Virus record (IMG/VR): IMGVR_UViG_3300031957_003827
Coordinates: 1-37,081 of that record
Length of the DNA stretch: 37,081 bases
DNA from: a virus
Direction: 5' to 3' (one strand)
Position 1 is the first letter of the stretch; each line of letters starts with the position of its first letter. Position numbers and translations under genes: made by a program. The notes under the pieces are model-generated. The model saw nothing but the letters and a program-made list of their open reading frames with translations, was not told the DNA's origin and made no database searches. Positions 6,346 through 35,262 of this stretch are shown here, piece after piece.

Positions 6346-6366
6346 GCCGGTCCAATAAATACCGGC
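6346..6366 (+). promoter_or_regulatory. TAAATA-hairpin leader element, copy 2 (small terminase)
   Basis: GCCGGT (6346-6351) pairs with ACCGGC (6361-6366) around a nine-base loop. TAAATA spans 6356-6361. The ATG (6367) follows the 3' arm with no gap, and no separate Shine-Dalgarno sequence is visible. Confidence 0.7.
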
Positions 6367-6906
6367 ATGGCAAAAAAGACAACACCGCCACCGCCGTCAC
6401 CTGAGCAGGTCGAAAAGCACTTTCAGGCTCAGCAGAAGAGCGTTTTCCAGAAGCCCTACTCCCGTGATCCCGGTGTCACGATCGTCAGCACGCAGGGCGA
6501 GGTTGCCCGTATCATTGATGCAGCCCGTGAGGGTGAGACGGTCCCCGCATTCAAGCTGCGAAATACCGACGAGATTCTGGCCGATCCGGTCGCCAGAACC
6601 AGCGATTTGCTCCGAAAAGCCCATCAGGGCATGGAGAAAGCGGACTTTGCTGCGCTCATCGGCTCTACGCTCGATCAACAATGCTATCTGGCCCTCTACG
6701 GCCAGATGTCGGATTACCAGCGCGCCCAGATATGGCAGCGCATCCACAAGCAGGCATTTGACGAGCAACAGGCCGCATTGGCTGAGGCGCATCGTCGTCA
6801 CCAGCTAGACCAGAAGAAGACCGACCAGCTTCTCAAGGCTCGTTCGCTACAGGAGCGTATCGCAGACGCCGCCGCCAAGCGCGGCAAGGTAATCGATGGC
6901 CAGTAA
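6367..6906 (+). CDS. Putative small terminase subunit (by position)
   Basis: The 179-residue protein has a Lys/Pro-rich start (MAKKTTPPPPSPEQ), a central mixed region and a highly charged helical C-terminus (about residues 115-179) likely to form coiled coils. It lies directly upstream of the large terminase and overlaps it by 11 bases, the standard place for the small terminase subunit that recognises viral DNA. No clear helix-turn-helix is visible, so the role rests on position. It has no Shine-Dalgarno sequence; its start codon abuts the leader hairpin. Confidence 0.55.
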   Translation: MAKKTTPPPPSPEQVEKHFQAQQKSVFQKPYSRDPGVTIVSTQGEVARIIDAAREGETVPAFKLRNTDEILADPVARTSDLLRKAHQGMEKADFAALIGSTLDQQCYLALYGQMSDYQRAQIWQRIHKQAFDEQQAALAEAHRRHQLDQKKTDQLLKARSLQERIADAAAKRGKVIDGQ

Positions 6907-10121: not shown

Positions 10122-10826
10122 ATGACCATGCAATTTCTGACGAAGAGTTTCAAAGCCGCTCCTATCAGGGAGAACGAGGTCGAAGGTCTGGCGTCCACAT
10201 ATGGCAACATCGACCATGCCGGTGATATCGTGGAACGCGGGGCATATGCCCGAACCCTAGATCGCTTCAACGGCAGCAGAAAGGGAATGCCCTTCCTTGC
10301 CCACCACCGTCATGACCGCCCTATCGGTAAGATCGTTGAACTGCGCGACAGCGACGAAGGCCTGTATTTCAAAGCCCGCTTCTCAGAAAGCCATGATGGT
10401 CAGAACGTCCGCCAGCAGTTTCTTGATGGAACGCTGGACAGCTTCTCCATCGGCTATCGGGTGATCCAGAAGCAGGCCGACCGCGTGAAGGACCGTCGTG
10501 TCCTGCGCCTCAAGGAAATTGCGCTCCATGAGATCAGCGCAGTCACTTTCCCCTGCAACGAGCTGGCCGTCATCAGCGCCGTGAAGGGCAACATCGGCGA
10601 AAGCTACAGCGACCTGAGCCTTGAGGATCAGCAGCGCCTCGCGGATTTCGCGGAAACGCTGCGCGCCGTGGCGAACGGCACTGCCCATGATGACATGCTG
10701 GCAGAAGTCGCGCTCGATCCAACCGAGATAATCGAGGCGGCAGCATCAGAAGATGATGAACAGCTACAGAAGGCATTTGAAGATGCTTGGCTGTCCTACC
10801 GCATCAAGCAGGCTTTCGATCGATAA
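10122..10826 (+). CDS. HK97-family prohead protease
   Basis: The 234-residue protein belongs to the S78 prohead protease family that trims the capsid protein and itself during head maturation. The family signature is clear: EVEGLASTYGNIDHAGDIV near the start, LAHHRHDRPIG with the catalytic His, and LDSFSIGYRV with the catalytic Ser, then LKEIALHEISAVTFPCN. The C-terminal acidic tail (about residues 160-234) may serve as scaffold or a self-cleaved portion. It lies between portal and capsid as usual. A second in-frame ATG two codons later is possible. Confidence 0.93.
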   Translation: MTMQFLTKSFKAAPIRENEVEGLASTYGNIDHAGDIVERGAYARTLDRFNGSRKGMPFLAHHRHDRPIGKIVELRDSDEGLYFKARFSESHDGQNVRQQFLDGTLDSFSIGYRVIQKQADRVKDRRVLRLKEIALHEISAVTFPCNELAVISAVKGNIGESYSDLSLEDQQRLADFAETLRAVANGTAHDDMLAEVALDPTEIIEAAASEDDEQLQKAFEDAWLSYRIKQAFDR

Positions 10827-10927
10827 ATAAAGCGTCAGCAGGAATGCTGACCGGCACTCCGTTCAGGACTCGCCCTCTTATAACAGAAGGACTCGCTTTC
10901 GCCCTCCTCTGAACTCGAAATCAGAGG
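10824..10927 (+). promoter_or_regulatory. Structured capsid leader with TAAATA element (copy 5) and alternative hairpins
   Basis: TAAATA (10824-10829) is followed by a perfect hairpin, GTCAGCA (10834-10840) with TGCTGAC (10845-10851), loop GGAA. AAAGCG (10829-10834) can pair with CGCTTT (10894-10899). Further on, CCTCTGA (10906-10912) pairs with TCAGAGG (10921-10927) and hides the AGAGG ribosome site of the capsid gene. A mutually exclusive pair, GTTCAG (10861-10866) with CTGAAC (10909-10914), would free it. The leader has a short imperfect repeat, GGACTCG, at 10866-10872 and 10889-10895. Confidence 0.6.
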
Positions 10928-10933
10928 TGAATA

Positions 10934-12181
10934 GTGAACGAGAATATCCAGAAGCTGTTTGACGAACTGGCGACCAAGGCCAATTCGGCGGACGCTGTTA
11001 ACAAGGCAGAGGTCCAGACCCTCTATGCCGAAATCAAGTCCCTACAGGATAAGCAGGTTGAGCAGGAAGCCGCTATCGAAGCAGCGACCGAAGCACTGGC
11101 GCGCAAGTCCACTACCAAGTCCCAGACAGTAGATGCCTCCGACGATCTGCGCGTCGCGCAGTTCGCGTTCGTCAAGGGCCGCCACGCTGTCACCGATGGC
11201 GACATCAAGGCCGACGAATTCAGCCGCACGGTCAACGTGGAAGGTGGTCACACGATCCCTACCCACTTCGACAGCGAAATCACCCGCGCACTGAACAAGG
11301 CCAGCCCGATCCGCGCACTCGCTCGCGTGTTGTCTGTGTCTGGCAATCTGGAACGCATCATCAAGGTCAAGACCTCCGGTGCCGCGCTGACGAAGACTGA
11401 AAAGGCTGCCTACGACCTCAACACCGTCGATACCTTCGCCAAGCTGCGTTGGGGTTTCGCCGATGTCACGGACCAGCAGCGCCACACCGCATGGGTTTCG
11501 GACGAGCCAGAAAGCGTCCTGAATCTCGCGCAGGAACTACAGGACAGCATGGTCCTGAACATCTCCGAAAAGGAGAGCGACCAGTTCCTCAACGGCACGA
11601 CCCAGAACAGCGTTGAAGACGTTGCTGGCGTGACCTCCACCCGCATGGGCCTTCTGGCACAAACTCTTTCGACCGGCACCGTCAACAAGTTCACCGACAG
11701 CTTCGGCGTTCTGGCGAAGGTCGAGGCTCCAGCGGTCAACGAAGATGGCACCGGCGCTCTGAGCGATGCCGTTCTGGTCCTGCGTTCGACACTCCACAGC
11801 AACTACCTTGCTGGCGCGGTCCTCGTCATCTCGTCCGACTTTGAACTCAAGGTCATGCAGGAGAAGGACAAGAACGGTCGTCCAGTCTGGGCACCTGCTG
11901 ATGCATCGATCTCCGGTCTGCCCGGCGGCACCATCTACGGCGTCCGCTATGTCGTGGACGACATGATGCCAGACGTTGCGACGGCGATCAGCACGGCCAA
12001 GCCTGCTGCGATCCTCGCGGACTTCAAGAAGGCATACACCATCGCGGATTATGGCACGATGAAGTGGGTCGTTGACCCAATCACCGAACCACAGTTCGTG
12101 AAATATAGCGCCCGTCGCCGCACTGGTGCAGCGATTGTCGATTATAAGGCAATCCGCGCTCTGGTCCTGACCGCCGCGTAA
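10934..12181 (+). CDS. HK97-type major capsid protein
   Basis: The 415-residue protein starts at GTG with AGAGG six bases upstream. Residues about 1-60 form a charged coiled coil (the delta/scaffold domain normally removed by the protease). The rest matches the HK97 fold: VEGGHTIPTHFDSEITRALN (N-arm and E-loop region), KASPIRALARVLSVSGN, a P-domain helix around DSMVLNISEKESDQFLNGTT, and the C-terminal VDDMMPDVATAISTAKPAAI then ADFKKAYTIADYGTMKWVVD. It follows its protease and is followed by a strong hairpin (12202-12231). It builds the icosahedral shell. Confidence 0.95.
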   Translation: MNENIQKLFDELATKANSADAVNKAEVQTLYAEIKSLQDKQVEQEAAIEAATEALARKSTTKSQTVDASDDLRVAQFAFVKGRHAVTDGDIKADEFSRTVNVEGGHTIPTHFDSEITRALNKASPIRALARVLSVSGNLERIIKVKTSGAALTKTEKAAYDLNTVDTFAKLRWGFADVTDQQRHTAWVSDEPESVLNLAQELQDSMVLNISEKESDQFLNGTTQNSVEDVAGVTSTRMGLLAQTLSTGTVNKFTDSFGVLAKVEAPAVNEDGTGALSDAVLVLRSTLHSNYLAGAVLVISSDFELKVMQEKDKNGRPVWAPADASISGLPGGTIYGVRYVVDDMMPDVATAISTAKPAAILADFKKAYTIADYGTMKWVVDPITEPQFVKYSARRRTGAAIVDYKAIRALVLTAA

Positions 12182-17101: not shown

Positions 17102-17152
17102 CCTCAGGATAAATACTGGGCAGCAGAACGCTGCATGGTAAAAAACCTGAGG
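17102..17152 (+). promoter_or_regulatory. TAAATA-hairpin leader element, copy 8 (tail chaperone)
   Basis: CCTCAGG (17102-17108) pairs with CCTGAGG (17146-17152). ATAAATA (17109-17115) directly follows the 5' arm, then an inner hairpin, GCAGC (17120-17124) with GCTGC (17130-17134). The 3' arm contains the ribosome site GAGG, 7 bases before the ATG at 17159. Confidence 0.75.
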
Positions 17153-33469: not shown

Positions 33470-33516
33470 GCAGTCTCCTCATAAATATCCGACACCATAG
33501 TTGGATAGGAGACTGC
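33470..33516 (+). promoter_or_regulatory. TAAATA-hairpin leader element, copy 13 (small baseplate-like gene)
   Basis: Outer stem GCAGTCTCC (33470-33478) pairs perfectly with GGAGACTGC (33508-33516). A 7-base bulge ends in ATAAA (33481-33485). The inner stem TATCC (33486-33490) pairs with GGATA (33503-33507). TAAATA spans 33482-33487. The ribosome site AGGAG is inside the 3' arm, and the TTG start follows one base later at 33518. Confidence 0.8.
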
Positions 33517-33517
33517 C

Positions 33518-33877
33518 TTGGCAGATATGAAGGACATCGAAGTTCGATACATTCCCGCGCTCAGTGGTGATGCCATCGTGTTCGTGGACAAGATCGGCAT
33601 CGTAGACGCGGGCACAGGTCTGCCGGTCGAGTTCACCGCCGAGCAGGTGGTATTCAGCATCAGCGAAAACGAGCGATCCAAACTCCTGCTGCGCTTGGGC
33701 GATGGCATCGTTTGGAACGACACCGAGAAATCTATCTCCATCACCATTCGCAATGACCAGATGCGCTTCGTGCGCGCGGATGGCGAATATGATTATGCCC
33801 TCTCCGTCCAGTGGGTCGGGAATGATCTTGCGAGAACCATCAGGGAAGGAACCGTAACGGCGGTCAGGGTGGCCTAA
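33518..33877 (+). CDS. Small baseplate/fibre-associated protein
   Basis: The 119-residue protein starts at TTG (product [13 protein letters not shown]), chosen because AGGAG lies 6 bases upstream; the in-frame ATG at 33527 is too far from it. The sequence is beta-rich ([20 protein letters not shown], then [20 protein letters not shown], then [20 protein letters not shown]), like the immunoglobulin-like N-terminal domains that anchor phage baseplate or fibre proteins. It overlaps the collagen-like fibre gene by one base, suggesting coupled translation and a physical partnership. The family is not recognised. Confidence 0.65.
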
Positions 33878-35262
33878 TGACAACAGAAATCGGAACAACC
33901 GATCTGCTCAACGAGATTCAGACCAGCGTCGTCCAGTATGAGGCAAGGCTGGTCCCGATCCCCGGCCCCAAGGGCGAGCGAGGCGATATTGGACCTAGCG
34001 GTCCACAGGGAGAAACCGGTCCCGCTGGCCCCATGGGTGCGGTCGGCCCCAAGGGTGGCAAAGGTGATCGCGGCGAAACCGGCGCAGCCGGTCCCGCTGG
34101 CACTAAGGGTGATACCGGCGCGACCGGAGCAAAGGGAGACAAAGGCGAAACAGGCGACCGTGGCCCGCAGGGCTTGCCCGGTCAGACCGGCGCTACCGGC
34201 CCACAGGGGCCGAAGGGTGACACGGGTGCTACAGGTGCGGCGTCAACTGTTCCTGGCCCCGCTGGCCCCGCTGGCCCACAAGGGGAACGCGGCCCCCAAG
34301 GCCCGAAGGGCGACAAGGGTGATACTGGATCGCCGGGACCAAAGGGCGATGCTGGCGCGCAAGGTCCAATCGGTCTTACGGGTGCTACCGGCGCAGCTTC
34401 GACCGTAGCGGGTCCGGCCGGGCCAAAGGGCGACACAGGTGACGCGGGACCGGCTGGCCCCAAAGGCGATACCGGGGCACCGGGCCAGAAAGGCGACAAG
34501 GGGGATAAGGGCGACACTGGCGCAACCGGCCCTGCAGGCACACCGGGCACGCCCGGCCCTGCTGGCACCGACGTTGCCGATTTTCTGTTCGAGGACGGCA
34601 CACTCAAGCTGTCGATGAGCAACGGGTCCATCTGGGAAGCCTTCATTCCCACAGGCGGCGGCACCGGCAAGCCGTGGTATTTCGACGCGCCGTTGGCCAG
34701 CACGTTCACGCTCCAGAGCGGCAATGCCGTCCAGCTATCTTTGACCGACGACACCGATGCTGGCCTGCTGGTGAAGAGCGGCGCGAGCGCAACCGGCGAC
34801 ATCAGCCGTGTGGCCTACAGGACGCTGACGAACAAGGCTCTGGATTGGGACATCGTGATCCGCGCCCCAATCATCATGAACGACGCCGATTACCGCAAGG
34901 GCGGCCTGATGGTCATGGATAGCACGACGAACCGCCACATTATCTGCGGCCAGGTGAACGAGTATCAGCCATTCGGCATCATCAAGTTCACTGGCATGAC
35001 GGGTGGATATGGCGGCTCGATTTCCGCTCAGGCGTTCAAAACTCAGCCCGAATTCTACCGCGCCGCCTGTGTGGGATCGACCCTGACATTCTATGTCAGC
35101 CATTGCGGCAAGAACTGGCTCCAAGTCGGCGCAACCGCGATCGGCGATGCCTTCGGCGCGAGGCCGGACAGGATCGGCGTCGGCTTCAACATCAGCACAA
35201 CCGATCCGACGCAAGCGTCCATGACGGTCGATTGCTTCAAGCTCACTGGTCCGGCTGTCTAA
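33877..35262 (+). CDS. Collagen-like tail fibre with lectin-like tip
   Basis: The 461-residue protein has three parts. A short N-terminus (residues 1-29) probably attaches to the tail. A long Gly-X-Y collagen-like stalk (about 30-230; for example [20 protein letters not shown]) is interrupted twice by the same ASTV insertion ([14 protein letters not shown] and [14 protein letters not shown]). A C-terminal beta-sandwich of about 230 residues (from [20 protein letters not shown], through [20 protein letters not shown], to [11 protein letters not shown]) resembles concanavalin-like DUF1349 domains that bind sugars. Collagen repeats form trimers, as phage fibres do. The start overlaps the upstream stop (TAATG). 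Confidence 0.85.

Follow-up and report, generated by a model that had tools for sequence, protein, structure and literature searches.

A conserved leader of the major capsid protein gene in sphingomonad phages, read as a probable two-state translational switch

The leader of the major capsid protein (MCP) gene in this phage, at positions 10,824 to 10,933 of the plus strand, is very probably a conserved cis-acting RNA of that gene. It contains two hairpins that compete for one strand, one of which covers the ribosome site, and we interpret the whole as the 5' leader of the MCP mRNA, conserved and cis-regulatory, which would work as a bistable translational switch, a model to which we assign a probability of roughly 60%. 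The properties on which this model draws were obtained by computation, and comprise the conservation of the leader, its non-coding nature, the two folds, their mutual exclusivity and the preference of the nascent chain for one of them.

A non-coding leader between the protease and capsid genes

The window, meaning the whole stretch of 37,081 nucleotides that was analysed, is a 37 kb virus record with a head-gene cluster of terminase, portal, prohead protease, MCP and head-tail genes, and the integrase at one end of the record indicates that the phage is probably temperate. Positions 33,877 to 35,262 (plus strand) encode a protein of 461 aa that contains collagen-like repeats and probably forms a fibre of the tail or virion. 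The prohead protease gene (Peptidase_S78, Pfam PF04586, E 1.3e-19) lies at 10,122 to 10,826 on the plus strand, and its stop codon TAA forms the first half of a TAAATA element (10,824 to 10,829, plus strand). The MCP gene (Phage_capsid, HK97 fold, Pfam PF05065, E 1.5e-29) follows at 10,934 to 12,181 on the same strand, beginning with a GTG start codon at 10,934 that is kept among relatives, and its Shine-Dalgarno AGAGG (10,923 to 10,927, plus strand) stands 6 nt 5' of this GTG and is invariant in 11/11 leaders. The leader fills the 107-nt gap between the two genes; the initial annotation had drawn it at 10,824 to 10,936, and the leader proper ends at 10,933.

Relatives gathered by MCP-based and pattern-based searches provided 11 distinct leaders. 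On viral contigs these are the leader of the window, which L002 and L003 share unchanged, and those of L004, L005, L006, L007, L008 and L037; in bacterial genomes they are those of Novosphingobium profundi (L012), Sphingobium ummariense (L013) and two genomes of the Sphingobium group (L057 and L059). All belong to one clade of sphingomonad phages and prophages, all are found immediately 5' of an MCP gene, and in each the first letters are TAAATA, at the stop codon of the protease gene. The part of the leader that spans hairpins P2 to P4 is more conserved in nucleotide identity than the MCP gene that follows it in every pair compared (45/45), with means of 0.82 vs 0.71, and the identity at the third codon position of the MCP gene is 0.54 in the same comparison. 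The distance from TAAATA to the start codon ranges from 107 to 113 nt by differences that are not multiples of three, which argues that the leader is non-coding.

To date the leader is known only from this single clade of sphingomonad phages. Model R1 of the leader matched in 1/399 Sphingomonadaceae genomes, in 3/94 genomes of the genus of G002 and in 1/196 of the genus of G001, and at the level of the order 399 genomes returned one real match together with one chance match in coding, GC-rich DNA (L085). A search of plasmids gave no match and a search of named phages none that was convincing. The pattern GGCACTCC..GGACTCGCC occurs in 28 stretches of viral contigs and was real only where it stood 5' of MCP genes, with L037 as the new case; the remaining stretches were not 5' of MCP genes and came without the rest of the leader. 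More distant MCP relatives (L049, L051-L056) have leaders of other kinds. In S. ummariense RL-3, the contigs C122 (L013/L060) and C70 (L058) have identical leaders and an MCP frame broken after 258 aa, as would be expected if the prophage has decayed or if the assembly contains it in duplicate.

Four hairpins, two of which exclude each other

The first hairpin, P1 (GTCAGCA-GGAA-TGCTGAC, 10,834 to 10,851, plus strand), is maintained among relatives through compensatory change. Two of its pairs are altered on both sides (U-A to G-C and C-G to A-U), two further variants are of the G-U type, and in one sub-clade GTCAGC/GCTGAC has become GGAAGC/GCTTCC; the exceptions are a single mismatch in L012 and a bulged outer stem in L005 and L057. 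Both this GGAA-loop hairpin and the TAAATA upstream of the capsid site, invariant in 11/11 leaders, had been picked out in the initial annotation, every quoted string of which lies at the position given for it. If TAAATA is a late promoter, then P1 is placed at or near the 5' end of the mRNA, where it would probably serve as a stabilising stem. On the minus strand of 10,834 to 10,851, P1 followed by GCTTTATTTA scores like an intrinsic terminator; no late genes run in that direction and the resemblance is probably incidental.

The second hairpin, P2 (GGC-AC-TCC-GTTCA-GGA-CTC-GCC, 10,853 to 10,874, plus strand), has an internal loop AC/CTC which, together with its stems, is invariant in 11/11 leaders, while its hairpin loop varies and measures 4-5 nt. 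The third, P3 (CAG(A)AGGA-CTC-GC-TTTC-GC-CC-TCCTCTG, 10,884 to 10,911, plus strand), is kept in 11/11 leaders with the consensus CAGnAGGA-CYC-GC...GC-MC-UCCUCUG. One asymmetric internal loop, GC-MC-UCC vs GGA-CYC-GC, is common to P2 and P3 with the strand order swapped, such that GC-MC-UCC comes first in P2 and second in P3. This motif occurs exactly twice in each of the 7/7 genomes or prophage regions examined and has no copies elsewhere in them, and the shared, swapped loop suggests a candidate binding site. The GGA of the leader bears no more than a resemblance to CsrA sites.

The fourth hairpin, P4 (CCTCTGA-ACTCGAAA-TCAGAGG, 10,906 to 10,927, plus strand), covers the Shine-Dalgarno. Its arms, CCTCTGA at 10,906 to 10,912 and TCAGAGG at 10,921 to 10,927, form a perfect 7-bp stem around an 8-nt loop; the loop varies and the stem is invariant in 11/11 leaders. 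A hairpin like P4 over AGAGG arose in 110/20,000 shuffles, which bears out the proposal of the initial annotation that CCTCTGA/TCAGAGG sequesters this site. The strand at 10,906 to 10,911 (CCUCUG) is common to P3 and P4, making their full coexistence impossible. Mutually exclusive helices, one of them sequestering the Shine-Dalgarno, are conserved across the 11 leaders, and the two-fold layout first proposed for the region is upheld in this form; the alternative to P4 is P3, formed through 10,884 to 10,891, a partner that the first reading of the sequence did not name.

Local folding energies across the 11 leaders are -7.4 to -8.2 kcal/mol for P3 and -9.9 to -10.1 kcal/mol for P4, so that P4 is the more stable by 1.7-2.7 kcal/mol and is the minimum-energy choice in 11/11 relatives. 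P3 contains an internal loop and a bulge, and the value for it depends on the energy model. Equilibrium folding of the full-length leader gives P4 a probability of 0.94-1.0 and P3 at most about 2%. In the nascent prefix, before the ribosome site has been made, P3 has a probability of 0.75-0.99 in 11/11 leaders and the CCUCUG strand is paired upstream with a probability of 0.88-1.0 in every one, a level reached in 0.5-10% of shuffles depending on the leader. RNAalifold, which is independent of the drawn model, recovers P2 in both cases, predicting P2 with P3 for the nascent prefix and P2 with P4 for the full leader. A partner for CCUCUG of 6 bp with one bulge is found by chance in 10% of single shuffled leaders, and the case therefore rests on conservation and not on any single sequence.

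That conservation follows the predicted structure. The alignment of P2 to P4 has 31 variable columns, 30 of them at positions that the model leaves unpaired and one at a paired position in P3, where a bulge shifts in L005 and L057 and the pair can still form; the Fisher p of 3e-12 for this distribution is optimistic, as the model was drawn after the alignment had been viewed. Among the invariant unpaired columns, 8/9 belong to the internal loops of P2 and P3. None of the stems of P2, P3 or P4 shows any variation, which leaves these hairpins without support from covariation. Invariance is to be expected of a strand that pairs with two partners, and direct recognition of the sequence by a protein could also produce it. 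Together these results lead us to regard P3 and P4 as probably the two states of a functional switch, P4 being the sequestor and P3 the anti-sequestor.

How the switch might operate, and competing explanations

During transcription P1, P2 and then P3 would fold in order, and P3, by holding the CCUCUG strand, would leave the emerging AGAGG free, the ON state. Once the ribosome site had been transcribed, CCUCUG could re-pair with AGAGG in the slightly stabler P4, hiding the site and turning the gene OFF. The twin internal loop of P2 and P3, which is compatible with an operator for a phage protein, would most likely be a paired binding site for a protein or another ligand. A binder at this loop would stabilise P3 and with it the ON state; in its absence P4 would form. 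The difference in stability between the two hairpins is of a size that binding or folding kinetics could tip. Of the steps in this switch model, the direction of the response, in which binding favours ON over OFF, is the one we hold with least certainty, and the existence of a specific binder at P2 and P3 is a question on which we stand slightly below even odds.

Hairpins at the initiation site of the MS2 coat gene with stabilities of about -9.5 to -10.5 kcal/mol cut expression to about 3-20% (PMC9894550 Table 1). As a hairpin of the strength of P4 lowers expression of that coat protein, it is plausible that an abundant coat protein needs an exit from P4. A permanent P4 would be odd for the most abundant protein of the virion, and from this we infer that the gene is ON in P3 and OFF in P4, with something deciding between them, either a binder of the twin loop or the rates at which transcription and ribosome loading proceed. 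Ribosomes on the protease gene terminate about 80 nt 5' of P4, too far away for simple translational coupling to be expected to open it.

More tentatively, the switch may sense a protein or the state of assembly, the twin permuted loop, with one copy inside the anti-sequestor, reading how concentrated a virion or assembly protein is and setting capsid synthesis accordingly. If true, this would constitute a new RNA family, and we know of no HK97-fold tailed phage in which a switch of this kind has previously been found on the MCP gene. Tailed phages must balance the amount of MCP with scaffold, protease and portal, and to our knowledge little is known of how this balance is set post-transcriptionally in HK97-like phages. 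A two-state leader located exactly at the MCP gene opens the control of MCP dosage to a direct test with reporters and RNA probing.

A rival reading is an operator with a single state, recognised by its sequence and through P2 and P4. The protein that binds it could be MCP, the protease or some other product of the phage, and it would repress translation of MCP in the manner of classical coat-protein operators; the cell would then never contain P3, and CAGnAGGACYCGC would be conserved for its contacts with protein. Stems and internal loops that are invariant and lack covariation fit this well, as does the dominance of P4 in full-length folds, and T4 gp32 and gp43 are known phage translational repressors that act in such a mode (PMC3014915). 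It leaves unexplained, however, the exact complementarity of a conserved upstream strand to the 5' arm of P4, the pair-preserving shift of the bulge in L005 and L057, and the copying of the P2 loop in P3 with its strands swapped, and we consider it unlikely.

Folding kinetics without any ligand could instead provide a timer, early P3 admitting the first ribosomes and the ageing mRNA then falling into P4 and being shut off. The finding that P3 is the nascent fold in 11/11 leaders and that P4 wins by a constant gap once the ribosome site is made would be accounted for with no need of a binder, and P2 would be just a spacer or stabiliser. Such a timer, however, offers no reason for the invariance of the bases in the P2 and P3 internal loops, which look like a recognition site, and its working interval would be short, as completion of P3 precedes that of P4 by only about 15 nt; we think it quite improbable.

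Stabilising hairpins are common near the 5' ends of mRNAs and between phage genes, and the leader could on these general grounds be an ordinary strong one in which P1 and P2 do no more than lend the mRNA stability or stop read-through, P4 arising incidentally from a strong Shine-Dalgarno. This is very unlikely to be all, as P4 is far above chance and would reduce rather than raise coat synthesis, and the conserved 5' arm of P3 would have no explanation.

The expression-platform layout noted in the initial annotation agrees with the sequestor and anti-sequestor arrangement found here, and its suggestion of a thermosensor does not: one hairpin over AGAGG is indeed the layout of a simple thermometer that warming would melt, but the accessibility of AGAGG predicted by the model stays at 0.000-0.003 (exposure at most 0.003) from 20 to 42 C in 11/11 leaders, the 7 bp of P4 are perfect, invariant and free of weak pairs, and P2 and P3 would be left unexplained, so we give this mechanism hardly any credence. 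Refuted by the relatives is the helix first proposed to release the ribosome site, GTTCAG (10,861 to 10,866) with CTGAAC (10,909 to 10,914), whose strings are present and whose pairing is complete in the window, L013 and L059 (3/11 leaders), but which is lost among close relatives, being broken in 8/11 (L057 retains 5/6 pairs), is paired in 64.5% of cells, equal to shuffled sequence, has an equivalent 6-bp alternative in 12.5% of shuffles and would break the invariant P2.

Related systems and a phage-wide TAAATA signal

The leader resembles sequestor/anti-sequestor expression platforms by mechanism and has no membership of an Rfam family. As in translational riboswitches, two exclusive helices share a strand, one of them hides the Shine-Dalgarno, and the anti-sequestor lies 5' and folds first. 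Unlike them, the leader is without a known aptamer, its putative sensor is a twin permuted internal loop with one copy inside the anti-sequestor, and the gene controlled is structural to the virion. Searches of the window and five relatives against Rfam 15 found no match at the gathering score, and the best matches below threshold were at chance level when permissive thresholds were tried. A metabolite riboswitch is a possible reading, and comparison with known aptamer families lends it no support. Other cis-regulatory RNAs are borne by phages, among them wcaG and manA (PMC2864571) and the glutamine riboswitch in Melnitz (PMC9004378). They share with the leader the character of a structured element carried by a phage, but belong to described RNA families and are placed on metabolic or tmRNA genes, whereas the leader stands 5' of MCP. 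The coat and replicase hairpins and coat operator of MS2 and Q-beta are similar in that the start of a coat gene lies in a hairpin, that the stability of the hairpin sets translation (in MS2, PMC9894550) and that a protein may bind; the differences are that this is a DNA phage with an HK97-fold capsid and no sequence relation to them, and that a second, competing hairpin is conserved.

The TAAATA that opens the leader is part of a wider signal. Among the 6-mers of the window it shows the strongest over-representation, with 14 copies on the plus strand vs 1.4 expected and one on the minus strand; the plus-strand copies begin at 1699, 2077, 6356, 8670, 10083, 10824, 13311, 16047, 17110, 17968, 21674, 23472, 29587 and 33482. 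In six relatives the observed and expected counts on the MCP strand are 17/3.1, 19/1.6, 8/0.7, 14/1.5, 17/2.5 and 9/1.1. Most copies lie shortly 5' of late genes, and 98 sites share the flanking consensus CCnnATAAATAnnnGnnA, that is CCnnA-TAAATA-nnnGnnA. The last A of this consensus is where a start site is expected for a -10 element, and we read TAAATA as a late promoter. On this sequence evidence it is likely to be a promoter, with the copy at 10,824 a probable -10-type late element of the MCP transcript, and the pattern suggests a late promoter lacking a -35 element, like the TATAAATA of T4. No other promoter-like sites were found within the leader. The sphingomonad phages have given both a compact RNA family that Rfam does not list and a signal, spread throughout the phage, that resembles a late promoter.

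In the T4 genes e, soc, 49 and I-TevI, inhibitory structures hold the Shine-Dalgarno in a helix and the late promoter is TATAAATA (PMC3014915). The MCP leader is alike in having its Shine-Dalgarno in a helix and a TAAATA-type late promoter element close by. T4 gene e has its late promoter within the structure, and its late transcripts lose the 5' arm (PMC3014915), whereas the TAAATA of the leader, at 10,824, is upstream of both arms of P4 (10,906 to 10,927). Its position 5' of the whole leader means that both arms would be present in the transcript and that release would need refolding. Other genes of the phage described here are closer to T4 gene e, as TAAATA lies between the arms at 33482 and 17110, for example. 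At six sites (2077, 17110, 21674, 23472, 29587 and 33482) it falls in a hairpin loop whose 3' arm is the ribosome site of the next gene, the arms being GCAGTCTCCT/AGGAGACTGC at 33482 (10 bp) and CCTCAGG/CCTGAGG at 17110 (7 bp). Taken over the class, pairing of the arms is significant, clearly exceeding shuffles, at only a few sites. The copy at 6356 ends 5 nt before the ATG at 6367 of the gene upstream of the terminase, with no ribosome site between, and if it is a promoter it would give that gene a nearly leaderless mRNA.

A search of three phage records for a sigma-factor domain found none. A 140-aa protein encoded at 2089 to 2511 of the window (plus strand) is kept in 5/6 relatives searched at 32-88% identity. 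Its N-terminus gives a weak helix-turn-helix signal and its C-terminus, coiled and conserved, ends in RGY; it is a candidate late-gene regulator.
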